A DNA stretch of 17,934 nucleotides from an uncultured Bacilli bacterium (GTDB lineage Bacteria > Bacillota_I > Bacilli_A > RF39 > UBA660), in contig CANQFI010000021.1 in NCBI GenBank assembly GCA_947598455.1, positions 1 to 17,934 of the forward strand. Direction: 5' to 3'. Below the pieces are notes generated by a model. That model searched no databases. It was not told the origin of the DNA and saw nothing but the letters and a program-made list of their open reading frames with translations. This document shows positions 3,101 through 17,841 of this stretch, piece after piece. The translations under genes and the position numbers were made by a program. Each line of letters begins with the position of its first letter. Position 1 is the stretch's first letter.

Positions 3101-3256
3101 AGCAAAAGCTGGACCATCATAGAAAACAAAGGTCTTATTATCTTCTCTTAATTTAACTTGAGCATCATGCATTGCATTAATACTTTTCCAAGATTTACTT
3201 ATTGATTCTTCAACCTCACTAACGGGTCTTTTGTCTAAATCTTTAAAATTTTTCAT
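164..3256 (-). CDS. ileS: Isoleucyl-tRNA synthetase, type 2 (eukaryote-like), with G-x-H-H signature
   Basis: Charges tRNA-Ile with isoleucine in the cytoplasm. At 1030 aa it has the length and sequence style of type 2 IleRS: GWDTHGLPIE at residues 86-95, CPHCG at 184-188, the editing-domain threonine-rich peptide TTTPWT at 225-230, a second Cys pair CPKCG at 500-504, and KMSKS at 590-594. Type 2 enzymes are known for natural mupirocin resistance. The class I HIGH motif, expected as P-H-x-G-H, reads P-G-L-H-H (residues 56-60), so positions one and three are exchanged; this G-x-H-H form has been described for a mupirocin hyper-resistant subgroup. The ATG overlaps the TAA of the upstream CYTH gene as TAATG, and its Shine-Dalgarno GGAGGAG lies inside that gene, so translation is probably coupled. 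Expression is under the T-box at 4090-4317, and possibly also a promoter inside the inserted element. Confidence 0.97.
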   Translation of the reverse strand: MKNFKDLDKRPVSEVEESISKSWKSINAMHDAQVKLREDNKTFVFYDGPAFANGFPGLHHMVSKNLKDTITKYHVMNGEKVIRKIGWDTHGLPIENHVEKKLGISSKKEIEELGVEKFNEECRKSVRENEGAFTDLTRKMGQFFDVENPYLTYKNDYIETEWWILKEMWKKDMFYEGTRVVPYCPHCGTGLATHEVAQNYQTDTAITVVVPFKKKDEDVYFLAWTTTPWTLIANVALCVNPDEDYVLVESKGLKFILGKALVNNILGDDVKVLKEYKGTDLEYMEYEQLIPSFDVDKKAFFVTCDNYVTMEDGTGIVHIAPAFGEDDANVGKKYDLPYLNPVGKDGCYVGGLWDGRFVHDVNEEVVDYLKENGKLFKRQKISHEYPHCWRCDTPLIYYSMPSYYIRVSEMTDKLVKANSKVNWYPAYVGEKRFANWLANARDWNVSRSRYWGSPIPYFKCECGNTHMLGSVVELKEMAIEKIDKDFDLHKPYIDNVHLKCPKCGKPMTRIPDVLDCWFDSGSMPFAQYHYPFENQELWESQFPADFICEGIDQTRGWFYTLMVISTFVKGCSPFKNVLVNDLLLDAEGKKMSKSRGNIVEPFTTIKEYGADTVRFYLPYVSPVWTPLKFDIEGLKEVYSKFFNPLKNTYSFFAMYANIDHIDTDECNVPYKKREEIDKWLLSKYNKLVRDVHASFDEYDLNKAVHYLASFVSEDLSNWYIRRNRNRFWGSELNDSKKSVYITTYEVLVGLAKLIAPITPFLSEELYRNLTNEKSVHLTDYPKVNKKLIDEHIEERMDLVRNLISIGRYVREEAKIKVRQPLSEALLDGKNKDLISDLVPLIAEELNIKEVKFVDDLNEYMNISVKPNFKVVGKVFGPLIKEFQTKLESLDVNSINTLQKGESIKLELGGEEKEITSDMIEVRITSKEGFNVGMENNNFIILDTTLTDELILEGIAREMISKVQQLRKNKDFNVADRITLYYSGDEVIDKCVSKFKEYIQNETLSLDIIKKDSLKEKYDLNGHDCLIDVER

Positions 3257-3804
3257 TATTTATTCTCCTCCATTTCAAAATTTAAATCAGCTAAATTATC
3301 ACCATCATAACCATAATGAGTATAGATACTTGCAACATCTAAGGTAACAATTTGCTCTTTACTAATACCTAATTTTTCTAAGCAATCATAAACTTCCTTT
3401 TCGTTCTTTCCTTCTATTTCCATATATTCAGGGATTAAAGGCCATCTATCTAAATCTACTTCAACACCATCTAACATATACTGAGTTCGTTTATTTTGTT
3501 GAAAACCTCGATTATGATAACCTAATACTTCTAATAATTCGTTAGTTTTAGCAAAGTCATCAACTTCTACTTCTAATTCTTTAGTTCCATCAATGGTTTT
3601 AGCTTCTAAATCTTTTATAGTAATAGTTGACTTAATACCATTTGTTCTTAATCTAATCCACTTGCTTTGACTAACTGGTTTTAAATCATAAACGTATCTT
3701 TGTTGTAAATTAGAAAACTTAAATTCAGCACCTAGGCTTTCTAATTTTTTGACCATTTCATCATGATCAATTTCTAATACTCTTACTTCATATTCAATAT
3801 TCAC
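3256..3804 (-). CDS. CYTH-domain protein (CyaB-like class IV adenylate cyclase / triphosphatase family)
   Basis: A 182-aa protein of the CYTH superfamily, whose members bind triphosphorylated substrates with divalent metals (class IV adenylate cyclase, thiamine triphosphatase, tripolyphosphatase). Visible signatures are the N-terminal strand E-Y-E-V-R at residues 4-8 (family form E-x-E-x-K, here with Arg in the last place), K-W-I-R-L-R at 48-53, T-I-T-I-K at 60-64, the acidic strand E-L-E-V-E-V at 76-81, and EVDLDRWPLIPEYMEIEG at 115-132, very typical of the CyaB branch. The start is GTG (3802-3804), chosen because a strong GGAGGC (3811-3816) sits 7 bases upstream. It is the first gene of the T-box operon and overlaps ileS by one base. 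The actual substrate cannot be read from sequence. Why a CYTH enzyme is coupled to isoleucine starvation is unclear. Confidence 0.85.
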   Translation of the reverse strand: MNIEYEVRVLEIDHDEMVKKLESLGAEFKFSNLQQRYVYDLKPVSQSKWIRLRTNGIKSTITIKDLEAKTIDGTKELEVEVDDFAKTNELLEVLGYHNRGFQQNKRTQYMLDGVEVDLDRWPLIPEYMEIEGKNEKEVYDCLEKLGISKEQIVTLDVASIYTHYGYDGDNLADLNFEMEENK

Positions 3805-3862
3805 AAGATCGCCTCCAAGAACAAAAGTAAAAATAAATAATTAAAATTATTATATTTTACAT

Positions 3863-3889
3863 AAGGAACCTCACGGTTCCTTTTTCCTG
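3863..3889 (+). terminator. Right-end hairpin of relic copy 1; reads as a terminator on the plus strand
   Basis: AAGGAACC-TCAC-GGTTCC followed by TTTTT on the plus strand. On the minus strand it has no T-tract, so it should not stop transcription of the CYTH-ileS operon. Copy 2 carries an A-T for G-C exchange on both arms of this stem, so the pairing is maintained. Confidence 0.5.
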
Positions 3890-4028
3890 CTTCATCGGAG
3901 TCTCCTCCTCCACAAGCCTAAATTCCGATGGTCGCCACCGTACATTTTCTTTTTTCTTTCTTTAATTTAAAAAAATAATTTTTTAGTTACCAACATAAAT
4001 TACAATTTTTCTCCATAAAGCAATTATA

Positions 4029-4060
4029 TAATATCGAACTAGTGTTCGTCAATGCTTTTT
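4029..4060 (-). promoter_or_regulatory. Candidate promoter with GAAC-N4-GTTC dyad inside relic copy 1
   Basis: Minus strand TTGACG, 18 bases, TATAAT, pointing into the CYTH-ileS operon downstream of the T-box. The spacer contains CGAACACTAGTTCG, a 5-bp dyad with a 4-base centre. This has the shape of a Gram-positive LexA/SOS box, but the two centre positions do not fit the Bacillus consensus. It could equally be the left-end hairpin of an IS200/IS605 element. Activity is an inference. Confidence 0.45.
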
Positions 4061-4089
4061 TTACATTTTTGAGAACTTTCCTATAAGAT

Positions 4090-4317
4090 AAAAAAAGTTC
4101 ATAATCTAAGGACGAGATTACCCGTGGTACCACCTTAGTTTATGAACTATCATACACTTAAACTCTTAACGCGAGGAACGTTTACTTCTACTATTTTCAA
4201 AGTAACACATTAGAAGTGATTTACAATATTCTTTCATTTATTACTATCTCACCAAATAAGTAACTCTCTTGTAACTACTTAAATATTGCCGTCTTCATCA
4301 ATTGCTTTACTTGCAAT
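4090..4317 (-). ncRNA. T-box leader (presumably tRNA-Ile responsive)
   Basis: Transcribed leader between the promoter at 4318-4347 and the operon. It contains the invariant T-box AAGGTGGTACCACGGGTAA (TGGTACCAC at 4124-4132), which pairs with the free NCCA end of uncharged tRNA. It also has an AGAGAG plus GGTGAGA stem I apex pair of motifs, a stem III hairpin (ACTTCTA/TAGAAGT), and a terminator in which GTTCATAA-A-CTAAGG (4133-4147) pairs with CCTTAGATTATGAAC (4097-4111) ahead of seven T. Under isoleucine starvation the antiterminator should form and allow cyaB-like/ileS transcription. I could not fix the specifier triplet; ATC at 4218-4220 and ATT near 4225-4230 are candidates, and the Ile assignment rests mainly on ileS downstream. 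Confidence 0.93.
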
Positions 4318-4372: not shown

Positions 4373-5965
4373 CTATTTTAAGAATTTAAGTTTTTTATAA
4401 TTGTGTTTAAAAACTAAACCAATTCCAATAGCAATAACAATAACACCAATTATTGAAAAAGCAGCAGTATTAGGGTTTTCAATAATTGGAATATTTACTT
4501 TTTTAACAAAAGTAACAACAATCTTAACATCACTTGCTGGCATTGTAAACGAATCTTCTTTAAATTCTATAACATTACCATCTTCATCTGTTACAACAAC
4601 TGACTTAAGCACATATCCTTCTGCTGGTGTTGTTTCTACTTTTTCTTTAACTTCTGCATATGACTTATCATTTGCTTTAACTTCTCCTTCACCTATTACT
4701 TCAATCGTAATATTATATGGTAATGCATAATGTTCTATTGTTGCAGCTATACTACATGCTGGAATATTAGAAGTTTGAGCTGTAGGAGCAACACTTTTTT
4801 TCAAGCATTGATTTGATTCATCAATATCAGTTACTAAAAAGCCATCACCAGTTGGCCCTAAAAAGCCATAGCCACCTTTTTCAGCTTTACTTTCAATTGT
4901 TTGAACAACATTTCCTTCTAAATCATAAACAACTATATCGTAATAATAAACATAATAATCTTCATCATATATTTCTCCAATTGTAACAATATAATCATTT
5001 ATTAACTTAACATCAAAAATAAAATCATATTTATCATTTTGTTTTTCCCAAATGGTCTTACCATCTTTATCTAACAAACCAACATAATTACTAGGTGAAC
5101 AACTTATTTTAGTAATTGGACTTATTTTTCTTACATTACCCGTTTCTAAAACGCTTTCTTGCATAACTGGAATAAAATACTCCAACCATCCGCCCATACC
5201 ACATGTATTCTTACTATATGCAACATAATTATCATTAACATCAGCTGCTATATACGCATTATAATGTCCATCACTAAAGAATTCTTCATAATCATAATAA
5301 TCATAATAATCATCATAATTATTATCATATGTTAATTTAAGTAAATAATAAATAGCTGGAAAATACTTTTTAACTGCATTAGCACTTGATGATACATTTT
5401 TCATCTTTTTTAAATCAAGATCAAAACTACGAATTTTAAATTTTTCACCTAATATATATAAATTATCATTATAAATAGATAAAGTCGTCATACCATATTT
5501 TGGGGCTATATAATTAACTTCACCAACTAAATAATCATCATAATAGTAATTATCTTCATCCATTAAATCATAAGTTTCTTCAATACTAAGATTATCATCT
5601 AATTTCATAATTTGTGGTATGTAATAGTAATTATATTTACCTGGTATCATTACTAATAAATAAACATTATCATCATTAGTAATAGCATCAATTACACCTA
5701 TATTTTTTAATTTATTATCTTTAATCGTATTACCAAATTTATCATAGTATCTAATATACATATCAGGTAAATCACTGTTTGTTTCTACATTATAAATAGC
5801 TAAGTATCCATCACGATATTTAAGATTCTTAAATACATCACTGCTATCTTCCATTATAAATGAGTTGCTATCACGCCAATCTAATTCAAATGGTTTAGCA
5901 CTAACTATCGTAATGTTTAAGATTATAAAGCAAATAACTAATAATATTTTTTCTATTTTTTTCAT
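4373..5965 (-). CDS. Cell-surface protein P1 of a paralogous family (signal peptide, beta-rich ectodomain, InlB-B-like repeat, sorting-type anchor)
   Basis: 530 aa. Signal peptide 1-23 ends in V-S-A. The mature start carries F-E-L-D-W. Residues ~45-410 form a beta-rich domain with propeller-like strand motifs (GLLDKDGKTIWEK at 296-308, VVYDLEGNVVQTI at 345-357); the fold is inferred. A Tyr/Asp-rich insert lies at 214-229. Cys255/Cys289 and Cys387/Cys404 bracket two segments that vary between paralogs. Residues ~418-487 form an InlB-B/Listeria-Bacteroides-like repeat ending in F-T-M-P-A-S-D-V-K-I-V-V-T-F. E-N-P-N-T-A at 496-501, a membrane helix and a basic tail follow, as in a sortase substrate with an NPxT-type motif. 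Stop is TAG. It is the second gene of an operon behind P2 (16-base gap, AGGT ribosome site). Ligand unknown; adhesin-like role is inference. Confidence 0.85.
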   Translation of the reverse strand: MKKIEKILLVICFIILNITIVSAKPFELDWRDSNSFIMEDSSDVFKNLKYRDGYLAIYNVETNSDLPDMYIRYYDKFGNTIKDNKLKNIGVIDAITNDDNVYLLVMIPGKYNYYYIPQIMKLDDNLSIEETYDLMDEDNYYYDDYLVGEVNYIAPKYGMTTLSIYNDNLYILGEKFKIRSFDLDLKKMKNVSSSANAVKKYFPAIYYLLKLTYDNNYDDYYDYYDYEEFFSDGHYNAYIAADVNDNYVAYSKNTCGMGGWLEYFIPVMQESVLETGNVRKISPITKISCSPSNYVGLLDKDGKTIWEKQNDKYDFIFDVKLINDYIVTIGEIYDEDYYVYYYDIVVYDLEGNVVQTIESKAEKGGYGFLGPTGDGFLVTDIDESNQCLKKSVAPTAQTSNIPACSIAATIEHYALPYNITIEVIGEGEVKANDKSYAEVKEKVETTPAEGYVLKSVVVTDEDGNVIEFKEDSFTMPASDVKIVVTFVKKVNIPIIENPNTAAFSIIGVIVIAIGIGLVFKHNYKKLKFLK

Positions 5966-5981
5966 CTTTATACCTACTCAA

Positions 5982-7469
5982 TTATTTTAAAAATCTTGCT
6001 TTCTTATAAAATTTAGTAATAATATAACCCAAACCTAAAGATAATAAAACTAATCCTGTAATTGATATCGCCGCTGTATTAGGGTTTTCAATTATTGTTA
6101 CAAATGTTACTTCAATAGTTACATCAGAAACTGGCATTATAAATTTATTATCATTAACTTCTATTCTATTACCATTGGCATCTCTAACAACAACTTCGCC
6201 TAATTTCCAGCCAATTTCTGGTGTTACACTAAATTCTACTTCTTGACCAGCTAAACTATTTGTTGGAGCTTCAACAACTCCTTCACCATTTACTTTAGAA
6301 TTGATGTTATATGATAATGAATATACTTCTAATTTAGTAACACTTAACCAATTATCGTAAAAATTTATAGGGGGATCATTTGTCAGATTAGTATTACCAT
6401 ATTTATCGTTAAAGTCATTAACCATAAAGCCACCATCAATAGCCGTTAATTGATGATACATTGAATCATTTTCAATAGTTTGGACAATATTACCTTCTAA
6501 ATCGTAAACAACAATGTAATATAGTGAATATTCTTGACCATTTTTTTCTTCTATTACATTTTTTAAAGTAACAATATAATCATCAATTAATTTAACATCA
6601 TATATATCTTCATCTTCATTAAAATGTTTATGCCAAATTTCATTACCTTCTAGATCACTTAGAACAAAGGCGCCTTCATTACTGCAAGCTATTCCAAAAT
6701 ATGGTTCAGGTGCTGAAGACAAACCTACGCCATAAAAGAAAGATTCAAACCAACTATCATATTCACACATATTATAACCAGCATATACCATATATTTATC
6801 ATTTTTATCTAAAGTTGTATAATTCATTTCATCTTCATATGATAATTCCAATAAATTATATATTTTTTCAAAATATCTAGCTATTCTATTTTCTGTACCA
6901 TTAAGGACATGATAATTATTTAAATCTAAGTCTATTTGAATAATATTAAATCCTCTAGTAAGAATATATAAATTATTATTAACAATAGACATTGTATCCA
7001 TACCATATGCACTTACATAAGCTGGTGTATCTTCAATATAACTAACATCTTCTTGGTTAATTTCAAGAAGATTAACTACTTCAAAAGAAGAATCTATTTT
7101 TACTAAATACATATTGTAATCATAATAGCATTCACCTTCACATACTAAAGCATAAATGTTTTCACCATCGGTAGTTGCTTTGATAATATTCATATCATCA
7201 TACGTTTTGTTATCTAATAATGTACCATCTTTCTTATAGTAATAAAGATAAGTAGTGGTATCACCGCTATTTCTAATAGCATCTGTATAAAGAGCTACAT
7301 AGCCATCCTTATAAGCCATTTTAGAATTAAAATCAAAATAATAACTATCAGCTTCAGCTAATTTTTCTTTTTCCCAGTTTAAACTAAAAGGATTTTCCAT
7401 TGCACTAACACTTAACATAAATGTAAATAGTGTTAGTATAGTAAATAAAATTAAATTTTTCTTTTTCAT
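5982..7469 (-). CDS. Cell-surface protein P2 of the same family, shorter variant
   Basis: 495 aa with the start chosen at ATG 7467-7469. GAGGCG (7476-7481) precedes it, the sequence begins with a clean signal peptide (MKKKNLILF...SVSA), and the longer open frame upstream overlaps the promoter. After cleavage comes F-S-L-N-W, then the beta-rich domain with the Cys235-Cys262 pair flanking a segment with C-x4-W-F-x2-F. The second Cys pair and the Tyr-rich insert of the paralogs are missing. Repeat domain at ~390-458 ends in F-I-M-P-V-S-D-V-T-I-E-V-T-F, followed by E-N-P-N-T-A at 461-466, a helix and K-K-A-R-F-L-K. First gene of the P2-P1 operon, transcribed from a promoter whose spacer contains eight G in a row, so its expression may vary between cells. 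Confidence 0.85.
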   Translation of the reverse strand: MKKKNLILFTILTLFTFMLSVSAMENPFSLNWEKEKLAEADSYYFDFNSKMAYKDGYVALYTDAIRNSGDTTTYLYYYKKDGTLLDNKTYDDMNIIKATTDGENIYALVCEGECYYDYNMYLVKIDSSFEVVNLLEINQEDVSYIEDTPAYVSAYGMDTMSIVNNNLYILTRGFNIIQIDLDLNNYHVLNGTENRIARYFEKIYNLLELSYEDEMNYTTLDKNDKYMVYAGYNMCEYDSWFESFFYGVGLSSAPEPYFGIACSNEGAFVLSDLEGNEIWHKHFNEDEDIYDVKLIDDYIVTLKNVIEEKNGQEYSLYYIVVYDLEGNIVQTIENDSMYHQLTAIDGGFMVNDFNDKYGNTNLTNDPPINFYDNWLSVTKLEVYSLSYNINSKVNGEGVVEAPTNSLAGQEVEFSVTPEIGWKLGEVVVRDANGNRIEVNDNKFIMPVSDVTIEVTFVTIIENPNTAAISITGLVLLSLGLGYIITKFYKKARFLK

Positions 7470-7496
7470 TTTCCACGCCTCTATTCTATTAATAAT

Positions 7497-7526
7497 ATTA
7501 TACCCCCCCCGCAAATGATAAATCAA
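7497..7526 (-). promoter_or_regulatory. P2-P1 promoter with an 8-G run in the spacer
   Basis: Minus strand TTGATT (7521-7526), an 18-base spacer that ends in GGGGGGGG (7503-7510), then TATAAT (7497-7502). The G run abuts the -10 box. Gain or loss of a G by slippage would change the spacer to 17 or 19, a known form of phase variation in other bacteria. Confidence 0.7.
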
Positions 7527-7579
7527 ATTAACAAGAAGTAATATTTACACGAAGACCAACTCACTTTACTTGTTTAAGC

Positions 7580-7617
7580 AAAAAGACTACTGAAAATCAG
7601 TAATCCCAGTAGTCTTT
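7580..7617 (-). terminator. Terminator after P3
   Basis: Minus strand AAAGACTACT (7608-7617) pairs with AGTAGTCTTT (7582-7591) across a 16-base loop that can itself pair, followed by a short T run. It lies 3 bases past the P3 stop codon and separates P3 from the P2 promoter. Confidence 0.8.
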
Positions 7618-7620
7618 AGC

Positions 7621-9276
7621 TTATTTTAAGAATCTTAATTTATTATAATTACGTTTAACTACAAATCCTAAAATACCAGCTAGTAAGACTAATCCTGTAA
7701 TTGATATCGCCGCTGTATTAGGGTTTTCAATTATTTCTTCGATAATTTTTTTAAATTTAACTTCTATAATTACATCACTTGCTGGCATTATAAATGTATT
7801 ATCCTCAACATCGATAATATTTCCTTCAGTATCAGTTATAGTAATTGAATCTACTTTATAACCAGCTTTAGGAGTTATTTCAATTGTTTGTTTTTTACCA
7901 GAAAATGATTGTTCATTTGCTTTTACTTCACCTTCACCTTCAATAGTAACAGTTATGTTATAAGGTATTGCATAGTGTTCAGTATTTGCTGATAATTCGC
8001 AATATCTTGAAGATGAAAATGTTTGAGATACTGGATTTATGCTTTCTGGTATTGGACAGTCGCTAACAGATCCATCAGTTACCAAGAAACCATCTTTAGT
8101 TGAAGCTAAGAAACCATAGCCATCGTTTTTACTTTCAATAGTTTGAACTAATTTGCCATCTAAATCGTAAATAACAACATCATATCCATATTCAGTTTCA
8201 CCTAAAGCTACAATATAATCATTAATTAATTTTACGTTTACAAATGCATAATAATCATTATTTTCTTTAGTCCAAATTGGTTTGCCATTTTTATCTAATA
8301 AACCAATTATATTTTTAGGAATCGGACAGCTAATTGTGGATATTCCATAAGTTCCAGTACCACTGGTTTCATCTAATTCGTCTTCATTTATAGAAACTTC
8401 AAATACAGGATAAAATGCTGTTAACCATCTATAATATCGGGTATAATATTCATCGCATTCAGAATATAAACCACTTACAGCTACATAGTCATTATTAGTA
8501 TCTGCTGAAATAAAAACACTTGGTAATATACCATCACCTGAATAATAACTATTTCCATACTTACGGATTAATGATTCGTAATATGAATCACTATAATAAT
8601 CATATTCTTCATAATCATCTTCAGTGTAATACATCATATTATTTTCAACCACTAATTTAGCTAAATAATAAATACCAGGAAAATATTTTTTAACAGAATT
8701 TTCATCTTCTTTTATAGATTTAATGGTTGCTAAATCCAAATCTAAACTACGAATTTTAAATTCTTCACCTAAAATATATAATCTATCATCTACGATTGAT
8801 AAAGTTGTCATACCAAATTGAGGTGCTATGTAATTAGCTTCTCCTATAAAACTATTGTAATCGTCATCTAAATTAAATTCTTTTTCAATACTAAAGTTAT
8901 CATCTAGCTTAACTATCTCAGGAATTTTATTACAGTAATCATCATAACATTTATAAGTTGATATTAATAAATAAGCATTATCATCGTTAGTTATGGCATC
9001 AATAATTTCCATATCATCTAACTTTTTCTCACTAATAATATTTCCATCTATATCATAATATCTAATATATGTAGTATCGTAATTATATGATTCTTCAGAA
9101 TGTATACTTAAATAACCATTACGATACTTTAAATTATTAAATGATACATTTCCTTCTGTAGTGATTGCTTCATTATCACGCCAATCAAAGGCAAATGGAT
9201 CATCCTTGGCACTTACCGTACCTATAAACATAAAGAAAAGACTCAGTAGAAGTATTATTTTTTTACTTTTTTTCAT
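7621..9276 (-). CDS. Cell-surface protein P3 of the same family
   Basis: 551 aa from ATG 9274-9276. The upstream in-frame ATG (9288) is rejected because GAGGT, the ribosome site, lies between the two. Signal peptide ends T-V-S-A, followed by F-A-F-D-W. The beta-rich domain has K-K-Y-F-P-G-I-Y-Y-L, then an unusually long Tyr/Glu/Asp-rich insert (~210-247). Cys274/Cys317 and Cys407/Cys426 bracket two variable segments. Repeat domain ~443-508 ends F-I-M-P-A-S-D-V-I-I-E-V-K-F; E-N-P-N-T-A at 517-522, helix, basic tail. Its signal peptide and promoter are identical to those of P4, yet the bodies differ strongly. It has its own promoter and terminator, so it is a single-gene unit. Function unknown beyond surface display. 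Confidence 0.85.
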   Translation of the reverse strand: MKKSKKIILLLSLFFMFIGTVSAKDDPFAFDWRDNEAITTEGNVSFNNLKYRNGYLSIHSEESYNYDTTYIRYYDIDGNIISEKKLDDMEIIDAITNDDNAYLLISTYKCYDDYCNKIPEIVKLDDNFSIEKEFNLDDDYNSFIGEANYIAPQFGMTTLSIVDDRLYILGEEFKIRSLDLDLATIKSIKEDENSVKKYFPGIYYLAKLVVENNMMYYTEDDYEEYDYYSDSYYESLIRKYGNSYYSGDGILPSVFISADTNNDYVAVSGLYSECDEYYTRYYRWLTAFYPVFEVSINEDELDETSGTGTYGISTISCPIPKNIIGLLDKNGKPIWTKENNDYYAFVNVKLINDYIVALGETEYGYDVVIYDLDGKLVQTIESKNDGYGFLASTKDGFLVTDGSVSDCPIPESINPVSQTFSSSRYCELSANTEHYAIPYNITVTIEGEGEVKANEQSFSGKKQTIEITPKAGYKVDSITITDTEGNIIDVEDNTFIMPASDVIIEVKFKKIIEEIIENPNTAAISITGLVLLAGILGFVVKRNYNKLRFLK

Positions 9277-9301
9277 AAATAACCTCATATTCTATAATAA
9301 G

Positions 9302-9353
9302 AGTATACCTTATAACGTAAAATAATGTCAATACGCCTTAATATGTTTTACAA
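9302..9353 (-). promoter_or_regulatory. P3 promoter and upstream GTAAA box
   Basis: TTGACA (9326-9331), 18 bases, TATACT (9302-9307). TTGTAAAACA begins exactly 22 bases upstream of the -35; the same box at the same distance precedes P4, P6 and the dead P7, suggesting a shared regulator site. Confidence 0.75.
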
Positions 9354-9363
9354 GTATGTTGTC

Positions 9364-9396
9364 AAAGAAAAAGATTACTGAAAATTAGTAATCTTT
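9364..9396 (-). terminator. Terminator after P4
   Basis: Minus strand AAAGATTACT, 7-base loop, AGTAATCTTT, then TTCTTT, immediately after the P4 stop codon. The T run ends just before another TTGACA, so terminator and next promoter region are packed together. Confidence 0.85.
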
Positions 9397-9397
9397 A

Positions 9398-11056
9398 TTA
9401 TTTTAAAAACTTAAATTTCTTATAATTTTTATAAACAAGATATCCTAATCCAACTGCTAATATAACTAATCCAACTATTGGGAAAGCATTAGTATTAGGA
9501 TTTTCAATTACCGGAGCTTCTTCTATTACTTCTTCCACTATTTTAACAGCGATTGTTACGTCACTAGCAGGCATTGTAAAAGAATTGTCTTCTACTTCGA
9601 TAATGTTACCTTCGGTATCTGTTACAGTAACTGATTCTACTTTATAACCAGCTTTAGGAGTTATTTCTATTATCTCTTTTTTACCAGAAAATGATTGCTC
9701 ATTAGCTTTAACTTCACCTTCACCTTCAACAGTAACAGTAATATTATGTGGTAATGCATAATGTTCAGTTGTTAGTTCGGTATAACAACTTGAACTTCTA
9801 TAATTTTGTGGTTCTAATTCTACGTTTTCTTCTTCTCTACATTGATTTGAAGCATCAACATCTGTAGCTAAGAAACCATCTTTAGTTGAGGCTAAGAATT
9901 GATAGCCACTTTTTTTATTTTCAATTGTTTGGACAACGTTACCATCTAAATCATAAATAACAATATCTCCATAAAAATCATAGTCATATAAACCTAAAGC
10001 TACAATATAATCGCCTACTAATTTAACATTAGTAAAAGCTGTATAGTCTTTATTTTCTTCTATCCAAATTGTTTTACCATCCTTATCCAATAAACCTAAT
10101 AAAGCATTGGGTGTAGGACATTCCATAGCAATTTGTGCTATACCATATTCATCTTCAGATGCTGATAAAGGTCCAGCTACTGAATTATTAATAAAAAACG
10201 AAAATAACCAGCTACCACTTCCACCACAAGAAATGTCAACAGCACTTATTCCTGTATACTTATCGTTTGTATCAGCCGATATAAAACTAACTCCCGCTTC
10301 TTGAAATAACCCTTGATAATAATTTGATTTATTATTTACTAACCAATAATAAAAGCTATCACAATCACCTTCTAATTCGTATTCACAATAATCACGAATT
10401 TCTTGATCAACTAAATCTTTATTTTCTATATAAGTTAATGTAGCTAAATAATAAATACCAGGGAAATATTTTTTCATTGTTGTTTCTTCTGATTTAATAG
10501 TTTTAATTGTTTCTAAATCCAAATCTAAACTACGAATTTGAAAGCCTTCACCTAAAATATATAATCTATTATTGACAATTGATAACGTACTCATACCATA
10601 TTCTGGGGCTATGTAATTAGCAACTCCGATAAATGATCCATAATCATAACTATATTCTTCGTCTAAATAATAGGCTTTTTCAATACTAAAATCATCATCT
10701 AACTTAATAATTTTAGGAACAGGATTATAATCATAATCTGGTACTAAACTTAATAAATAAATGTTATCATCATTGGTAATTGCGTCAAATGTCATTATAT
10801 TATTTAATTTTTTTTCTTTAATGGTATTACCATCTATATCATAATATCTAATAAATGTGTTTCTTTCTTCGCTATTATATATTGTTAAATAACCATTACG
10901 ATATTTTAAATTAACATTTATACTATATGTATCGTGAGAAATAATTGAATTTGTATCACGCCAATCAAAGGCAAATGGATCATCCTTGGCACTTACCGTA
11001 CCTATAAACATAAAGAAAAGACTCAGTAGAAGTATTATTTTTTTACTTTTTTTCAT
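9398..11056 (-). CDS. Cell-surface protein P4 of the same family, flanked by the 375-bp repeats
   Basis: 552 aa from ATG 11054-11056 (GAGGT ribosome site; the ATG 12 bases earlier overlaps it). Signal peptide identical to P3, then F-A-F-D-W. After K-K-Y-F-P-G-I-Y-Y-L comes a private insert (~207-253) with its own Cys224/Cys232. Cys277/Cys313 bracket a segment with C-G-G-S-G-S-W-L-x2-F; Cys406/Cys424 bracket the second variable loop. Repeat domain ~440-506; then E-E-A-P-V-I-E-N-P-N-T-N (anchor at 518-523), helix and tail identical to P5. NPNTN fits the sortase B consensus form better than the NPNTA of its paralogs. Separate promoter and terminator. The gene sits as a cassette between perfect repeats, so exact excision, gain or exchange by homologous recombination is plausible. 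Confidence 0.85.
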   Translation of the reverse strand: MKKSKKIILLLSLFFMFIGTVSAKDDPFAFDWRDTNSIISHDTYSINVNLKYRNGYLTIYNSEERNTFIRYYDIDGNTIKEKKLNNIMTFDAITNDDNIYLLSLVPDYDYNPVPKIIKLDDDFSIEKAYYLDEEYSYDYGSFIGVANYIAPEYGMSTLSIVNNRLYILGEGFQIRSLDLDLETIKTIKSEETTMKKYFPGIYYLATLTYIENKDLVDQEIRDYCEYELEGDCDSFYYWLVNNKSNYYQGLFQEAGVSFISADTNDKYTGISAVDISCGGSGSWLFSFFINNSVAGPLSASEDEYGIAQIAMECPTPNALLGLLDKDGKTIWIEENKDYTAFTNVKLVGDYIVALGLYDYDFYGDIVIYDLDGNVVQTIENKKSGYQFLASTKDGFLATDVDASNQCREEENVELEPQNYRSSSCYTELTTEHYALPHNITVTVEGEGEVKANEQSFSGKKEIIEITPKAGYKVESVTVTDTEGNIIEVEDNSFTMPASDVTIAVKIVEEVIEEAPVIENPNTNAFPIVGLVILAVGLGYLVYKNYKKFKFLK

Positions 11057-11081
11057 AAATAACCTCATATTCTATAATAAG

Positions 11082-11133
11082 AGTATACCTTATAACGTAA
11101 AATAATGTCAATACGCCTTAATATGTTTTACAA
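11082..11133 (-). promoter_or_regulatory. P4 promoter and upstream GTAAA box
   Basis: Copy of the P3 promoter: TTGACA (11106-11111), 18 bases, TATACT (11082-11087), with the TTGTAAAACA box 22 bases upstream. It lies within the perfect repeat. Confidence 0.75.
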
Positions 11134-11143
11134 GTATGTTGTC

Positions 11144-11176
11144 AAAGAAAAAGATTACTGAAAATTAGTAATCTTT
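11144..11176 (-). terminator. Terminator after P5
   Basis: Same hairpin as after P4 (AAAGATTACT / AGTAATCTTT plus T run), directly after the P5 stop codon; ends the P6-P5 operon. Confidence 0.85.
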
Positions 11177-11177
11177 A

Positions 11178-12752
11178 TTATTTTAAAAACTTAAATTTCT
11201 TATAATTTTTATAAACAAGATATCCTAATCCAACTGCTAATATAACTAATCCAACTATTGGGAAAGCATTAGTATTAGGATTTTCAATTACCGGAGCTTC
11301 TTCTATTACTTCTTCCACTATTTTAACATCAATTGTTACGTCACTAGCAGGCATTATAAAGGTATTATCTTCAACATCAATAATATTACCTTCAGTATCT
11401 GTTACAGTAACTGATTCTACTTTATGTCCTTCTTTGGGAATTATCTCAAAAGTTTCTTTGTCTCCTGCAAATGATTTTTCGTTAGCTTTTACTTCTCCTT
11501 CACCTTCAACTTTAACAGTAATATCATATGGAAAAGCATAATGTTCAGTTGTAGAAGCTACTTTGTAATAATCTGGATCGTCATCATCATTTATTTGCAT
11601 AATTTCATTGGCTTTATTTTGTTTAAGAGATCTATATGTAGGGTAATAACCATATTCATCTGTAACTCTTGTATCAGTCACGATAAAGCCTTTTGGAGTT
11701 GCTGATAAGAAATAGTATCCATTATCTTTACTCTTTATTGTTTGAACTAATTTACCATCTAAGTTGTATATAACAACATCAGAACTATTATCTGTTATTC
11801 CAAGAGCAACAATGTAATTATTAGTTTGTTTTACATTAATAAATGCATAATAATTTTTGTTTTCTTTTTCCCATTCTTTTTTACCATCACTGTCTAATAA
11901 GCCAAGATATGCGATTTGACGACATGTTGTTACATATGGCATTGCTTCATTTTGATTAGTCATTAGGCTTTGTTCGTCTTCTGTGTAAAATTCATAAAGC
12001 CAACTCATTGTACATGTTGTTTTACTATAAGCGACATTTTTATCATTAACATCAGCAGAAATAAATTCATAATCATCATAACCATCATAATGTGTATTAG
12101 CTTCGTAGGTTAATTCCATTAAATAATAAATACCAGGGAAATATTTTTTTACTGTGTTTTTATCAAAATTAACTTTTTTTACTGAATTTAAATTTAGGTC
12201 AAAACTAAGTATTCTAAACTCTTCTCCTAAAACATATAAACGATCATTAACAATTGATAATGTACTCATACCATATTCAGGAGCAATATAGTTTGCATCA
12301 CTTATAAAATAACTATATTCATCATCTAAATCATATTCTTCTTCAATACTAAAACTCTCATCTAATTTAACAAGAATATCATCATAACTATTATCATCAT
12401 ATGCAAATAAGTAAATATTTTCATCATTAGTTACGGCATCATAAACATATAATCTATTTATTGTTTTTTCTTTAATTGTTTGTCCTTCATTATCATAATA
12501 TCTTATGTGTGTTCCGGCAGTGTTATCGTCATCTTCATAAGCATAATAAATACTAATATAGCCTTCACGATATTTAAAGTTTAATATCATATCATCTGCT
12601 ACATAACTATTGTTATAACTGTTATAGCGTGTTGTATAGAAAGAATCACTATCACGCCAATCAAGTTCAAATGATTTTTCACTTGCATTAACTATTGCTA
12701 TATTCATTAGGAGAAAAAATATTATTAACATTATTTTATTTATTTTTTTCAT
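11178..12752 (-). CDS. Cell-surface protein P5 of the same family
   Basis: 524 aa. Signal peptide ends I-V-N-A, followed by F-E-L-D-W-R-D as in P1. Beta-rich ectodomain with A-N-Y-I-A-P-E-Y-G-M-S-T-L-S-I, V-K-K-Y-F-P-G-I-Y-Y-L and a short Tyr/Asp insert. Cys247/Cys277 bracket a variable segment beginning C-T-M-S-W-L; the second Cys pair is absent and replaced by an Asn/Asp-rich stretch (~378-395). Repeat domain ~410-477 ends F-I-M-P-A-S-D-V-T-I-D-V; anchor E-N-P-N-T-N at 490-495 with a helix identical to P4. The gap to P6 is 19 bases with a TAGGT ribosome site and no terminator, so P6 and P5 are one operon. Closest to P1 at the N-terminus and to P4 at the C-terminus, i.e. mosaic. Confidence 0.85.
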   Translation of the reverse strand: MKKINKIMLIIFFLLMNIAIVNASEKSFELDWRDSDSFYTTRYNSYNNSYVADDMILNFKYREGYISIYYAYEDDDNTAGTHIRYYDNEGQTIKEKTINRLYVYDAVTNDENIYLFAYDDNSYDDILVKLDESFSIEEEYDLDDEYSYFISDANYIAPEYGMSTLSIVNDRLYVLGEEFRILSFDLNLNSVKKVNFDKNTVKKYFPGIYYLMELTYEANTHYDGYDDYEFISADVNDKNVAYSKTTCTMSWLYEFYTEDEQSLMTNQNEAMPYVTTCRQIAYLGLLDSDGKKEWEKENKNYYAFINVKQTNNYIVALGITDNSSDVVIYNLDGKLVQTIKSKDNGYYFLSATPKGFIVTDTRVTDEYGYYPTYRSLKQNKANEIMQINDDDDPDYYKVASTTEHYAFPYDITVKVEGEGEVKANEKSFAGDKETFEIIPKEGHKVESVTVTDTEGNIIDVEDNTFIMPASDVTIDVKIVEEVIEEAPVIENPNTNAFPIVGLVILAVGLGYLVYKNYKKFKFLK

Positions 12753-12771
12753 AATTAACCTACTTCATTTA

Positions 12772-14430
12772 TTATTTTAAAAATTTTACCTTCTTGTAAT
12801 TTTTATATGTGATATATCCTAGTGCACATGCAAATAACACTAAACCAGTTATTGAGATAGATGCGGTATTAGGATTTTCGATAATTGCTTCGATTATTTT
12901 TGTAAATGTTACTTCAATTGTAACTTCACTACTAGGCATGACAAATTTGCCATCTTTAACTTCTATTTCATTACCATTAGCATCTCTAACGATTAATTTA
13001 TCTATTTTCCAACCAAATTTTGGAGATGCTTTTACTTCTACTTCTTCACCTGAATAGGCATCTTCTTTTACTTCTAATTCTCCTTCACCAGTTATTTCTT
13101 TATTGATGTTATAAGGCAAATGATAAACTTCAGTGGTTGTATAAGTTACACAATATGAACAATCTTCTAGGGAATCTAAAATATCATTAATTTTACCTTG
13201 GCTTTCATCTGATATTTCACTATAAGGTTCAACACTTGATAGTTCTGGATAATAACATTTTTTCGAATCAGTTGTATTTTTTGATACAATAAAGCCATTT
13301 TTTGTTGGAACTAGATGAGTATATCCAACTATATCAGTAGTAATATTTTGAACTAAATTACCTTCTAAGTCATAAACTAATATTTCTGTTCCATCTTCAG
13401 ATAAACCAACTGCTACAACATAATCACCTATTAATTTAACATTAATAGCTAATAAATCATATTCTAAATCTTTTTCCCATATTGTCTTACCTTCAGAATC
13501 TGTAAGACCAATGTAACCATTTAAATCACAAGTTTCCTCTGGAGCGTAAGTAATTGTTGCTACTCCTTTAATACTTTTTTCACTTCTCATTGAAAAAATT
13601 GTAGCAATATCAGGTACGCAAGATAGGCTTGTGTAAGCTATATTTTGTTCATTACTATCTAGGCTGATAATACCATTATCCATCTTAGCACCTAGTTTAG
13701 ATGTTTGATATACCTGATCAAAATATTTTTTCATTGTATTACTTTCAGGGTCATAATCTGGCTCGTAATATGATAATTCTTGTAATTCTTTATCAAATTC
13801 AACAACACCCATACCATATGTAAGTAGATAAACACCATTTTCATCAACTGTCATGGTGTCATAGCCTAATAAACGACCACCAAATTGCATTATTTCTGTT
13901 CTTTCTAATTCATCATTATAATCTAATTTTTCTATATCTTCGTTTAAAAAATCATATTGTTCTTCAAGAGTAAAATTACCATCATACTTAATAACACTTA
14001 GACCTACTTCTTCTGAATAATAAGGTGAACCTCCAGCCATTGTATTAATACCATACGTTTCTTGTAAAGATCTTTCTTGAGAACGCAAATAATCTATATC
14101 GAATTGCAAAACATAAATGTATTCTCCATCTGTCGTTGCGTTTACGACTAATTTATCATTAATCTTTTTTTCTTTGACAATATTACCTTCATGGTCATAT
14201 CTTCTCATAATTGTTTTAATTTCTTCAGTATTCTTATTCATGTCTAAACGGAAATTTACATAACCATCTCCATAAACAAGATTGGTGTCTATAACACCTA
14301 ACAAGTTGTAAGTTGTTGCTTTGTCGTCATTTTTCCAGTCTAAAGCAAAGGGATTTTCTTTCGCTTTTACTACACTTATACATAAAATGAATAAGCTTAG
14401 TAAAAAAACTATGATTTTACTTTTTTTCAT
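12772..14430 (-). CDS. Cell-surface protein P6 of the same family, most divergent intact member
   Basis: 552 aa from ATG 14428-14430, preceded by TTGAGGT; the longer reading frame upstream runs through the promoter and is rejected. Signal peptide ends V-V-K-A, then F-A-L-D-W. It has an extra segment (~115-190) and lacks the Tyr-rich insert. Cys271/Cys301 and Cys392/Cys424-Cys427 bracket variable regions, but the W-(L/F)-x2-(F/Y) motif after the first Cys is missing. Strand motifs L-T-D-S-E-G-K-T-I-W-E-K and L-V-Y-D-L-E-G-N-L-V-Q are retained. Repeat domain ~440-510 ends F-V-M-P-S-S-E-V-T-I-E-V-T-F; anchor E-N-P-N-T-A at 518-523, helix and K-K-V-K-F-L-K. First gene of the P6-P5 operon with its own promoter. 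Confidence 0.85.
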   Translation of the reverse strand: MKKSKIIVFLLSLFILCISVVKAKENPFALDWKNDDKATTYNLLGVIDTNLVYGDGYVNFRLDMNKNTEEIKTIMRRYDHEGNIVKEKKINDKLVVNATTDGEYIYVLQFDIDYLRSQERSLQETYGINTMAGGSPYYSEEVGLSVIKYDGNFTLEEQYDFLNEDIEKLDYNDELERTEIMQFGGRLLGYDTMTVDENGVYLLTYGMGVVEFDKELQELSYYEPDYDPESNTMKKYFDQVYQTSKLGAKMDNGIISLDSNEQNIAYTSLSCVPDIATIFSMRSEKSIKGVATITYAPEETCDLNGYIGLTDSEGKTIWEKDLEYDLLAINVKLIGDYVVAVGLSEDGTEILVYDLEGNLVQNITTDIVGYTHLVPTKNGFIVSKNTTDSKKCYYPELSSVEPYSEISDESQGKINDILDSLEDCSYCVTYTTTEVYHLPYNINKEITGEGELEVKEDAYSGEEVEVKASPKFGWKIDKLIVRDANGNEIEVKDGKFVMPSSEVTIEVTFTKIIEAIIENPNTASISITGLVLFACALGYITYKNYKKVKFLK

Positions 14431-14454
14431 ATATACCTCAATTCTATTAATATG

Positions 14455-14506
14455 ATTATACCCTTTGCGAAAAGAAAACGTCAACATGTTGCTAAGTGCT
14501 TTACGA
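14455..14506 (-). promoter_or_regulatory. P6-P5 promoter and upstream GTAAA box
   Basis: TTGACG (14479-14484), 18 bases ending in GGG, TATAAT (14455-14460). TCGTAAAGCA starts 22 bases upstream of the -35, and a second CGTAAA copy lies just beyond. Confidence 0.75.
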
Positions 14507-14528
14507 AGCATTTTACGAAATAAAATGT

Positions 14529-14556
14529 CAAAAAAATTACTATTTCTAGTAATTTT
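14529..14556 (-). terminator. Terminator after the P7 pseudogene
   Basis: AAAATTACTA-GAAA-TAGTAATTTT with further T, five bases past the P7 stop. Its end overlaps a TTGACA. Confidence 0.8.
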
Positions 14557-14560
14557 AAGA

Positions 14561-15283
14561 TTATTTTAAAAATTTTAATTTCTTATAATTTTTATAAGAT
14601 ATGTAACCTAAACCACCAGCTACTAATACCAAACCAGTAATTGAAATTGCTGCTGTATTAGGATTTTCAATTATCTCTTCAACTATTTTTTTTAATTTAA
14701 CTTCTATAATTACATCACTAGTTGGCATTGTAAATTTACCATCTTTTACTTAATTTCAGTACTAAGCAATCCTTCTTTTGAAGCTGTTATTATGCCGTCA
14801 CCAGTAACAACTTTATAAATAGCAATAATTATTTGATATTTGAATCCTAGTGAAGATATTTTTTCACTACGATCATAAGCAAATGCTTGAACAACTATAT
14901 TTTTTATTACCAAATGGTAAAACATGTAATATATCAACACATAATGCAGCATTTTCTTTTGAAATATATTTATATAGATAACGAGTAACATGATCACTTT
15001 CTAAATATTCATGATAATTACTAGTTCATTTTGACTAAGACCTATATATACACCATAATAATTTTATTGTTTTACAAATCACTTTTTGTCATCATTAGAT
15101 AACCTTCATCATTTTCAAATGTATGATCATAATATAAATAATTTGATGCACCACCTTGCTTTAATATTCAATCAAAATGAATGTATTCTTTGGCATTAAC
15201 TTAAAAAAAATAAAACTAGGATACTAAAACATATTAAACGAACTAAGACGAATAAAAAATTTTCTAATTCTTTTCATATTCAT
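14561..15283 (-). pseudogene. Decayed seventh surface-protein gene (P7)
   Basis: Recognisable pieces in family order with stops and frame changes between them. At the 5' end (~15180-15283) are M-K-R-I-R-K-F-F and, in another frame, V-N-A-K-E-Y-I-H-F-D followed by TGA where the family has Trp (F-x-L-D-W). Next comes a fragment D-E-G-Y-L-M-M-T-K-S-D-L and stops. Near 14760-14830 is V-V-T-G-D-G, matching the start of the repeat domain. From ~14750 to 14561 there is an intact C-terminus: F-T-M-P-T-S-D-V-I-I-E-V-K, E-N-P-N-T-A-A-I-S-I-T-G-L-V-L, tail K-K-L-K-F-L-K and TAA. Roughly half of the normal length is gone. The preserved 3' end could still serve as donor sequence for gene conversion (inference). 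Confidence 0.85.
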
Positions 15284-15305
15284 TACTTCTTTATTTAATA
15301 ATACG

Positions 15306-15367
15306 ATTATACTCATTTTATTTAGATAAGTTTAGATAATGTCAATTAATTGCAAAATATTTTACAA
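15306..15367 (-). promoter_or_regulatory. Damaged P7 promoter (28-bp spacer) with GTAAA box
   Basis: TTGACA (15340-15345) and TATAAT (15306-15311) are intact but 28 bases apart. The spacer contains TTATCTAAAC directly followed by TTATCTAAAT. Removing one 10-base copy restores the family's 18. TTGTAAAATA begins 22 bases upstream of the -35 as in P3, P4 and P6. Confidence 0.7.
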
Positions 15368-15414
15368 CAAAAACATTTAACTTTATAAAATGTTGATGCT
15401 AGGAAAAAGATAAG

Positions 15415-15450
15415 ATTATTGGTATAATTAAAAAAGAATAAAGGGAGATG
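15415..15450 (+). promoter_or_regulatory. Promoter and ribosome site of the phosphohexomutase gene
   Basis: Extended -10 box TTGGTATAAT (TATAAT at 15423-15428) without a convincing -35 at normal distance, then AAGGGAG about 9 bases before the ATG. The 15292-15455 interval is the divergent region between this gene and P7; I see no gene in it. Confidence 0.6.
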
Positions 15451-15455
15451 ATATT

Positions 15456-16823
15456 ATGGATAAAAATATCTTTCGTGAATACGATATTAGAGGAGTTTAT
15501 CCAACACAAATTAATGAAGACGTAGCTTATACGGTAGGACGAAGTTATGGTTCATATATTCAAGAAAAATTAAAAAGAAATATATGTGGTGTCGGAAGGG
15601 ATAATCGTTTATCTAGTCCACAGCTTGCTAGAGAATTAATTAGAGGAATTACAGAATCTGGATGTAATGTTATAGATTTTGGTTTAGTAACAACACCTAT
15701 GTATTATTATGCATGTTTAAAGGCTAATATTATTATTGGCGTTATGGTTACAGCTAGTCATAATCCTAAAGATGATAATGGATTTAAATTTAGTTTTGAT
15801 CATTTAGGTAATGCTCGTGGTGAACAAGTATATGACTTTAGAGATTATACGTTAGCAGGAAAATTTTTATCCGGTGAAGGTAAAATAACAACTTTTGAAC
15901 CAAAAGATTACTACAAGAGTTTTATTAAAGAAAATATTGAAATGGGTTCGAGAAAATTAAAAGTTGTATTAGATTGTGGTAATGGGACTACATCCCTATT
16001 TGCTAAAGAGATATTTAGTGAATTTCCTAATTTAGATCTTACAATGATATGTAGTACAAGTGATTCAACATTTCCTAACCATCATCCAGATCCTTCAGTA
16101 CCTGAAAATAATAAAATGTTAATGGATAAGGTATTAGAAATTGGAGCTGATATTGGAATTGGTTTTGATGGAGATGGAGATCGAGTCGGATTTGTATCAG
16201 AAAAAGGAGAATTTATTCAAGCAGATAAAATAATGATTGCTTTTATTAGGAGTATTAATGATAAGGTTAGTAATAAAAGTTATTTATATGATGTTAAATG
16301 TAGTAAAGCTTTAGAAGACGAAATTATTAAATTAGGTGGTACTCCTATTTGTTTTAGAACAGGTAATTCTTATACAAGGGCTGAAGTTAATAAACAAAAC
16401 TACCCTTTTGGAGGAGAATACTCAGGTCATTTGTATTTCAAAGATAGATGGCCTTGTATAGATTCTGGTTTTTATAATGCTTTACGTATGTTAGAGATAC
16501 TAAGTAATACTGATAAGAACTTTACAGAATTATTTGAAGGAATTAATTTCTATTATAATACACCTGAACTTAAATTAGCTGTTAGTGATGATGTTAAGTT
16601 TAAAGTAGTAGATAAAGTTAAAGAATATGCTAAAGATAAACAATATAAGTATTTAGATGTTGATGGAATTAGAGTTCAATTCGAAGATGGATGGGCTTTA
16701 GTTAGAGCTAGTAATACTGGTCCTAATTTAACTTTAAGGTTTGAAGCAAGTAGTACAGAAAGATTAGAAGAAATAAAAAAAGAATTTGAAGATGTAGTTA
16801 ATAATGCTATTAATGCATTATAA
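15456..16823 (+). CDS. Phosphomannomutase / phosphoglucomutase (alpha-D-phosphohexomutase family)
   Basis: 455 aa, normal length for the PMM/PGM branch, which interconverts hexose 6- and 1-phosphates (mannose and/or glucose) to feed GDP-mannose or UDP-glucose and so cell-envelope glycan synthesis. The four family signatures are complete: catalytic phosphoserine loop T-A-S-H-N-P at 99-104 (Ser101), metal loop D-G-D-G-D-R at 238-243, sugar-specificity loop G-G-E-Y-S-G-H at 319-325, and the C-terminal phosphate-binding loop R-A-S-N-T-G-P-N at 417-424. E-x-S-G-H fits PMM/PGM rather than phosphoglucosamine mutase. It is the only intact plus-strand gene, transcribed alone and away from the surface-protein cluster. 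Which sugar it prefers cannot be read from the sequence, so no symbol is given. Confidence 0.93.
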   Translation: MDKNIFREYDIRGVYPTQINEDVAYTVGRSYGSYIQEKLKRNICGVGRDNRLSSPQLARELIRGITESGCNVIDFGLVTTPMYYYACLKANIIIGVMVTASHNPKDDNGFKFSFDHLGNARGEQVYDFRDYTLAGKFLSGEGKITTFEPKDYYKSFIKENIEMGSRKLKVVLDCGNGTTSLFAKEIFSEFPNLDLTMICSTSDSTFPNHHPDPSVPENNKMLMDKVLEIGADIGIGFDGDGDRVGFVSEKGEFIQADKIMIAFIRSINDKVSNKSYLYDVKCSKALEDEIIKLGGTPICFRTGNSYTRAEVNKQNYPFGGEYSGHLYFKDRWPCIDSGFYNALRMLEILSNTDKNFTELFEGINFYYNTPELKLAVSDDVKFKVVDKVKEYAKDKQYKYLDVDGIRVQFEDGWALVRASNTGPNLTLRFEASSTERLEEIKKEFEDVVNNAINAL

Positions 16824-16893
16824 AAAGATCTCTTTTAATACTAGTACCCTCAATTACTCACTAAATAAAAAGATTAATTAATTTGAAATATTA

Positions 16894-16975
16894 AAGTTGA
16901 TACTGTACTGGTGACGAGTATTCTAACTTCTTTTGAATACGTTCATTGTGTATAACAATGAACGTATTTTTTTAT
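16894..16975 (+). terminator. Terminator behind the phosphohexomutase, with an extra stem-loop before it
   Basis: A perfect 13-bp stem (AATACGTTCATTG 16936-16948, CAATGAACGTATT 16956-16968) with 7-base loop followed by seven T. It lies 112 bases past the stop codon. A further imperfect hairpin (AAGTTGATACT ... AGTATTCTAACTT, 16894-16929) precedes it, so the interval might be a structured 3' UTR or a small RNA. Confidence 0.85.
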
Positions 16976-16999
16976 TTTAATCACTGCTTCTTTTTTTTG

Positions 17000-17742: not shown

Positions 17743-17762
17743 CACCTCCCTTTTGGAAGTGT
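17736..17762 (-). terminator. Terminator of the gene entering from the right edge
   Basis: Minus strand ACACTTCC, 5-base loop, GGAGGTGT, then seven T. About 80 bases past the stop codon at 17842-17844. Confidence 0.85.
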
Positions 17763-17841
17763 ATTCTGTCATATTTTATTTGAACTTACTTTTTATTAAT
17801 GTCTACTATAAAGGTGCAATTCATAATCAACTTTTTTAATT

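Follow-up and report, generated by a model that had tools for sequence, protein, structure and literature searches.

What are the surface proteins encoded by this array of paralogous genes, and how is the variation among them to be read? Within the 17,934-nt stretch of DNA analyzed here (the window), from a bacterium that is probably gut-dwelling, the ORF list confirmed a real array of six intact paralogues (P1 to P6) and one dead relative, flanked by an IleRS operon on one side and a hexose-phosphate mutase gene on the other. We read the array as an expanding set of wall-anchored putative binding proteins, and consider it fairly probable that the locus is an accessory island whose genes encode surface beta-propellers for binding, putatively held on the cell wall and diversified on one face. 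The intact genes are minus-strand open frames (514 to 579 aa when the longest start is taken; pairwise identity 36 to 64%): P1 at 4373..5965 (530 aa), a clade-B propeller paralogue; P2 at 5982..7469 (495 aa from an MKKK start, with a TTG start at 7526 as the alternative); P3 at 7621..9276 (551 aa from MKKS); P4 at 9398..11056 (552 aa from MKKS); P5 at 11178..12752 (524 aa); and P6 at 12772..14430 (552 aa from MKKS). As a preliminary description of this DNA had stated, all six share a scaffold running from a signal peptide through an InlB-B-like domain to a tail of ENPNT, transmembrane segment and basic residues, and the KKYFPxIYYL segment it reported in P1 and P3 to P5 was found there, with variant forms also in P2 and P6. 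The dead paralogue it described (approximately 14564..15283, minus strand) is real, although it belongs to the separate subfamily of the intact proteins P0021 and P0015; its tblastn matches are scattered over three frames and interrupted by frameshifts, one or more in-frame stops and long stretches without a match. The matched pieces end at 15200, the ATG at 15283 being read from the sequence.

The ends of the proteins indicate how they may be displayed. A sorting-signal layout (ENPNT, hydrophobic segment, basic tail) is present in six of six proteins, while the LPXTG anchor models (Gram_pos_anchor PF00746 and the NCBIfam LPXTG model) gave no match at E values up to 1. Sortases were present in all five relatives searched. 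Each protein would be exported by its signal peptide, after which a sortase of class B type probably links it to the wall at NPNT; against this, besides the lack of an anchor-model match, three other sortases that were scanned were of class C (two) or unclassed (one). The InlB-B-like domain had been ascribed to all six proteins; against the PF18998 gathering cut-off of 23.6, P1 (23.9), P3 (35.4; residues 437-511, 7744..7968, minus strand, also seen in the model), P4 (28.6) and P6 (26.5) score above, and P2 (21.4) and P5 (22.2) fall just below. Each protein would hold a propeller ectodomain, as its fold is predicted, up on one InlB-B stalk above an NPNT anchor. Internalins carry leucine-rich repeats as their ectodomain; the array proteins share with InlB-B surface proteins the stalk domain (over cut-off in four of six) and differ from internalins in having a propeller above it. 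In the family search, other ectodomains were also seen by eye on InlB-B/NPxT stalks.

The ectodomain itself had not been recognized as a named family, and this was upheld: no Pfam or NCBIfam family scored above its curated cut-off, only sub-cut-off matches to Kelch_6, FlgD_ig and the like were returned, and PDB sequences searched with profile A2 gave no match at E values up to 0.1. Nor did any enzyme model in the same two libraries reach its cut-off, an enzyme-family match being the outcome that the preliminary description had named as telling against its reading. Predicted models of P3 (the first AlphaFold2 model) and P6 (the second protein modeled) show repeated four-stranded antiparallel blades closing into a disc and strong structural matches over the domain; the fold predicted for the ectodomain is a beta-propeller, with six blades by count. 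Matches for the fold were taken from VIA rather than from Foldseek's own ranking, which was set aside for its low TM scores and its mixture of propellers with propeller-containing enzymes. Assignment to a particular propeller family was likewise dropped, YncE, CylK, BamB, integrin and WD40 entries being near-equal in Z. Among the literature matches listed (including the best 8 of 3,706 and the best 10 of 89, with subscription journals mostly outside the scope), no paper on the propeller family was found by title.

With a predicted fold in hand, the variation could be placed on it. Three hypervariable places had been proposed; these do vary, but so do all six b-c connections and all five measured d-a connections between strands (d4-a5 in just 2 of 22 proteins). 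Across 22 homologues, 132 of 242 cells for b-c and d-a connections showed a length other than the modal one, compared with 6 of 242 for the turns of the opposite face, a contrast measured within homologues of this propeller rather than against an unrelated propeller family and in agreement with the earlier picture of variable loops on a steadier scaffold. (The 18-protein alignment excluded near copies P0001, P0003, P0006, P0007 and P0011, and also P0010, P0014, P0015 and P0016; the 22-protein alignment added P0018 to P0021, with the same omissions plus P0017 and P0022.) Since the variable segments are b-c and d-a blade connections, the strand topology of the models, in which loop pLDDT is below 50 in places, predicts that they share one common face, in line with the clustering on one face that the preliminary description had proposed to check. 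In P3 they include the b-c loops of blade 4 (residues 272-320, Cys274/317; 8317..8463) and blade 6 (residues 404-427, Cys407/426; 7996..8067) and the Tyr/Asp-rich d3-a4 insert (residues 217-252; 8521..8628), all on the minus strand and placed by model and alignment; in P6 the b-c loop of blade 2 is longer by some 22 inserted residues, which P1 to P5 do not have. The Tyr/Asp-rich insert, described as hypervariable, is so in length (0 to 40) but less so in sequence, with 38% identity among P1 to P6 where letters align. The strands, together with the turns on one side, would keep the fold, while most of the differences would sit in the loops on the opposite face, some of them enclosed by Cys pairs; these loops would be the likeliest site of ligand contact, with host or dietary glycans, mucin or neighboring microbes as candidate ligands.

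It is possible, if on balance unlikely, that drift explains this pattern: tandem duplicates of a surface propeller would simply diverge, with indels gathering wherever any propeller tolerates them and no selection for variety. In propellers generally, short hairpin turns may be constant in length, and the substitution data were divided. In the 7 of 15 pairs for which dN/dS was computed, loop values exceeded 1 in two and lay at 0.50 to 0.86 in the other five, as drift would allow, with dS high and loop alignment uncertain; against drift, loop dN/dS was 1.5 to 3.4 times the rest-of-propeller value in six clade-B pairs. Substitutions were counted in five orthologue-type pairs. P6/P0018 showed a loop excess (P = 6 × 10−4) that drift does not readily explain, whereas that of P3/P0002 was not significant (54/203 versus 42/198, P = 0.24), the stalk of this pair (27/74 changed) exceeding its b-c loops (31/93). 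Face-to-face comparisons (b-c versus a-b plus c-d) were mixed, being significant in two of five pairs (P6/P0012 and P0012/P0019), at P = 0.05 and P = 0.09 in two more, and reversed in P0008/P0009 (26/78 versus 15/39, P = 0.68). Because close pairs disagree, fast point diversification was dropped as a proven cause, and positive selection on the loops is unproven.

The predicted fold also bears on whether each copy captures a different nutrient or cofactor as a small molecule, a reading we regard as quite improbable. The B12-capturing surface proteins of Bacteroides are propellers. Capture of B12 by surface lipoproteins, as described in an excerpt of PMC6143338, offers a precedent, but no transporter-like gene was seen by eye among the ORFs of the window, and the variation sits in long, low-confidence loops rather than in a conserved pocket.

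Cysteines mark several of the variable loops in the putative binding face. A first pair (Cys255/289 in P1) is conserved in all six array proteins, as had been noted, but is missing from P0004, P0005 and P0012 in the wider family; alignment confirmed that a second pair (Cys387/404 in P1) is present in P1, P3, P4 and P6 and lost from P2 and P5. Across 18 proteins, 72 of 77 ectodomain cysteines lie inside b-c or d-a connections, and the count is even in 15 of the 18. Closure of the loops by disulfides, which these positions suggest, is unproven; against it, none of the 15 genus genomes yielded a VKOR.

Identical gene junctions suggest how copies could be gained and lost. A perfect 375-bp direct repeat brackets P4, one copy (10954..11328, minus strand) spanning the last 151 nt of P5, 109 nt of intergenic DNA and the first 115 nt of the P4 frame, and the other (9174..9548, minus strand) spanning the last 151 nt of P4, 109 nt of intergenic DNA and the first 115 nt of the P3 frame. 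Such a repeat would be a substrate for gaining or losing a whole gene when the conserved ends of adjoining genes undergo homologous recombination, and we infer that events of this kind have occurred. Loop length may change by in-frame slippage together with point change: TRF and translation located a 9/12-bp in-frame tandem repeat in the d3-a4 insert of P1 (residues 213-227; 5286..5329, minus strand) and, at the corresponding position of P5, a 9-bp tandem repeat (residues 221-229; 12067..12091, minus strand).

A variable face, recombination-prone junctions and a slippage repeat would also suit antigenic variation, or evasion of phage or of immunity, in which the exposed face varies to dodge recognition rather than to bind. 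We consider this unlikely, and the programmed switching implied by the proposed antigen-variation design was unsupported within the window. In vlsE and pilE arrays, silent cassettes feed one expression site; the present locus resembles them in having neighboring paralogues whose ends are constant and whose middles vary, but its copies are complete genes that have starts and anchors, and the window holds six full frames rather than silent cassettes. No inverted-repeat pair (at least 16 nt) surrounds a short promoter segment in the window. The nine inverted pairs of that length (73 to 94% complementary) have arms at least 465 nt apart; in two of them (I7 and I8) one arm falls on a promoter-like box, its partner lying more than 1.3 kb away within a gene, and these two are probably due to chance. 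PHROGs and PADLOC each gave no family at an E value of 0.01 for the four proteins searched (P1, P3, P6 and P0021). Diversity-generating retroelements vary a surface that is presumably ligand-facing, as the array does, but no reverse-transcriptase-like ORF was seen by eye in the window, and the array varies in loop length as well as in residues. Promoter-like boxes lie near P6, P4, P3 and P2, but the promoter scan was no better than chance (105 sites versus 95.1 ± 10.0 in shuffled sequences), so that separate expression of individual copies is only suggested; terminator-like sites numbered 8 versus 2.0 ± 1.5.

Relatives of the source bacterium show that copy number at this site differs, as the preliminary description had proposed to check. 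By sequence comparison the locus is an accessory island (approximately 4376..15420, without strand): the flanks of the window, matched separately, meet in G253 and G251, overlapping by 12 and 20 bp, and the IleRS of both genomes is about 95.5% identical to that of the window. Nine genomes were examined at the site (G001, G002, G170, G245 and G251 to G255; G035 and G246 to G250 were left out). The copies number zero in G251 and G253, two in G001 and six plus one dead in the window, a range that speaks against drift, as does the fact that six of seven copies are still open. An unrelated ORF occupies the gap in G245 and G170; the flanks lie apart in G255, a contig end is reached in G002, and G252 lacks the CYTH gene, which was located in G253. 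Beyond the site, the profile matched 12 of 15 genus genomes (at full length in G001 and G002 only), and 27 of 243 genomes gave matches in the family search, mostly through stalk and anchor alone. An island set against none or two copies in near relatives suggests a repertoire with which different targets could be grasped. More doubtful is a fuller version in which propeller "variable heads" are exchanged and multiplied through identical junctions, each head having a fixed stalk and a single hypervariable face that disulfides partly close, and lineages of a commensal moving between zero and six or more binding specificities.

Multigene surface adhesins are already known, and the array would be a variant of that kind. 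Its proteins resemble fibrillar adhesin-like proteins, as excerpts of PMC8286594 and PMC9210967 describe them, in having a signal peptide, a putative binding domain at the N terminus, a stalk, an anchor at the C terminus and fast evolution; they differ in being short (about 500 to 550 aa), in having a single stalk domain and in a propeller that matches no curated adhesive domain. Propellers are likewise among the surface-protein domains of another domain of life, to judge from a 2002 title cited in PMC2447325, those proteins differing from the array in stalk, anchor and domain of life. Proteins with an ectodomain named by neither Pfam nor NCBIfam now have a predicted fold, and since propeller strand topology foretells which loops share a face, the meaning of their variation can be tested. 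If that face binds ligands, the family would show adhesion specificities being gained and lost gene by gene in a little-studied Bacilli lineage, at a site where gain and loss can be read in relatives.

The array of the preliminary description holds: six intact paralogous surface proteins, P1 to P6 (pairwise identity 36-64%), are encoded on the minus strand at 4373-14511, followed on the same strand by a dead relative at about 14564-15283, and the features named are present, with corrections. Their ectodomain now has a predicted fold, a beta-propeller. The island is flanked by an IleRS gene (164-3256) and a CYTH-domain gene (3256-3804; Pfam match), both on the minus strand, and by a hexose-phosphate mutase gene, "PMM" (15456-16823, plus strand); the names IleRS and PMM are readings and do not come from a family search. 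A T-box leader (RF00230; 4105-4310, minus strand) precedes the CYTH-IleRS operon and was also found at 8/9 related loci scanned. A 280-bp non-coding repeat with hairpins lies at 3818-4096 and 17467-17742 (copies 91% identical), and in its first copy the minus strand carries a TTGACG-18-TATAAT box; a promoter scan of the window was at chance level. In 5/5 genus genomes the matches to this repeat were no more than short and partial; it may represent either a repeat element or a small RNA. The final 1.1 kb (16824-17934) holds no ORF of ≥80 aa.

In an antiparallel four-strand blade (strands a to d), connections alternate between faces in sequence order, placing b-c and d-a on one face and a-b and c-d on the other. 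With connection length taken between strand midpoints in 22 proteins of this propeller family, and with no unrelated propeller family as control, b-c plus d-a connections were off modal length in 132/242 cells and a-b plus c-d connections in 6/242 (cells not independent); the latter count was the same with three MAFFT settings and 5/242 with a fourth. When P3's own turn boundaries were applied, 11/11 a-b/c-d turns were uniform in length across the 22 proteins. Identity among the six window proteins was 18% in b-c loops and 34% in d-a loops, 43-47% in strands, 44% in a-b turns, 53% in c-d turns and 54% in the stalk. Ectodomain cysteines (n = 77, 18 proteins) fell mostly in b-c segments (64; d-a, 8), their number was even in 15/18 proteins, and none of the 18 stalks contained one. 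The three variable segments proposed earlier are real, being d3-a4 (blade 3 to blade 4), b4-c4 (Cys pair 1, P1 Cys255/289) and b6-c6 (Cys pair 2, P1 387/404), but are not the sole ones: eight further connections vary, all of the b-c or d-a kind. Strand topology and loop length, rather than coordinates, support variation on one face of the predicted propeller.

Divergence along the alignment gave a strong contrast in loop length and a mixed one in substitutions. Substitutions in loops (b-c and d-a) versus the rest of the propeller were compared in five pairs of family members (P6/P0018: 53/199 versus 26/203, P = 6 × 10−4; P6/P0012: 115/180 versus 77/203, P < 10−6; P0012/P0019: 124/174 versus 90/203, P < 10−6; P0008/P0009: 70/202 versus 49/198, P = 0.04; P3/P0002: 54/203 versus 42/198, P = 0.24); comparing faces directly (b-c versus a-b plus c-d) was significant in 2/5 pairs. 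NG86 dN/dS in the six clade-B pairs ranged over 0.50-1.22 for loops, 0.25-0.45 for the remainder of the propeller and 0.14-0.40 for the stalk; for the separate pair P2/P6 the values were 1.03, 0.83 and 0.67. Because dS was high and loop alignment poor, these ratios show weaker constraint on loops and do not indicate positive selection.

P4 is flanked on both sides by perfectly matching copies of a 375-bp direct repeat (9174-9548 and 10954-11328), each copy spanning one gene's end, the intergenic stretch and the next gene's start; gene middles are far less similar. Recombination between the copies would gain or lose one whole gene. In-frame tandem repeats of 9/12 bp encode the Tyr/Asp-rich insert of P1 and, to a lesser degree, that of P5, and would be open to slippage. 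In the tree, P6 grouped with L001a and P0012 (support 98/99), and P2 with L002/L003 genes as a candidate grouping (84/93). P1, P3, P4 and P5 formed one clade with P0002 (closest to P3), P0004, P0005, P0008 and P0009 (100/100). This clade had no member from the bins L001-L003, so its expansion is not common to those bins, yet is older than the split from P0002's source.

Copy number differs between related genomes. L001, a Bacilli bin apparently from rabbit to judge by the sample name Lapin, has two paralogues between the same flanks; G251, G253, G254 and G252 have none, and the last also lacks the CYTH gene. The window IleRS is 95.5-95.6% identical to those of G253 and G251 and 93.0% to that of L001; the nearest relatives seen therefore have an empty site, and the window flanks, up to about 15420 and 4376, meet in G253. 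In G245 and G170 the flanks enclose an unrelated ORF; the unrelated ORFs that fill the mutase-CYTH gap in two relatives measure 362 aa (L067 1836-2921) and 449 aa (L068 6706-8052), which makes this gap a possible hot spot for insertions. The flanks are apart in G255; in G002 one paralogue sits beside the mutase gene where the contig ends, with further ones near a SerRS-like gene. Inspection of the window ORFs by eye showed none resembling an integrase, and the island ends carry no exact repeat of ≥40 bp. In four relatives (L065, L067, L068 and L069), the gene downstream of IleRS encodes 408-433 aa ending in an InlB-B-like/NPET tail; the corresponding stretch lies outside the window.

All six proteins end in an ENPNT motif followed by a hydrophobic stretch and a basic tail, and the motif reads NPNTN in P4 and P5. 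Sortase matches were found in 5/5 relatives; of four sortases scanned, that of G170 was class B over cut-off, two were class C and one unclassed. According to PMC5118464, class B sortases recognize NXXTN, not LPXTG, yet that of Clostridioides difficile does not take NPQTN, making NPNTN as a class B signal, and anchoring of P1 to P6 via a class B-type sortase, a lead. PMC10868615 reports srtA/B missing in RFN20 and ML615J-28; assignment of the present lineage to RF39 is a guess. MraY matches in 15/15 genus genomes (over cut-off in 14) make a cell wall likely; VKOR, a thiol oxidant that would bear on the putative disulfides, was found in 0/15. Contig G029:C25 carries five stalk and anchor matches in a row (frames of 431-717 aa), and the sole frame examined in part was unlike P1 to P6, so the stalk may be common to different heads. 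The preliminary description had read the variable loops as an antigen- or ligand-variation design; the window lends no support to antigen switching, and our best guess is that P1 to P6 constitute a ligand-binding repertoire.
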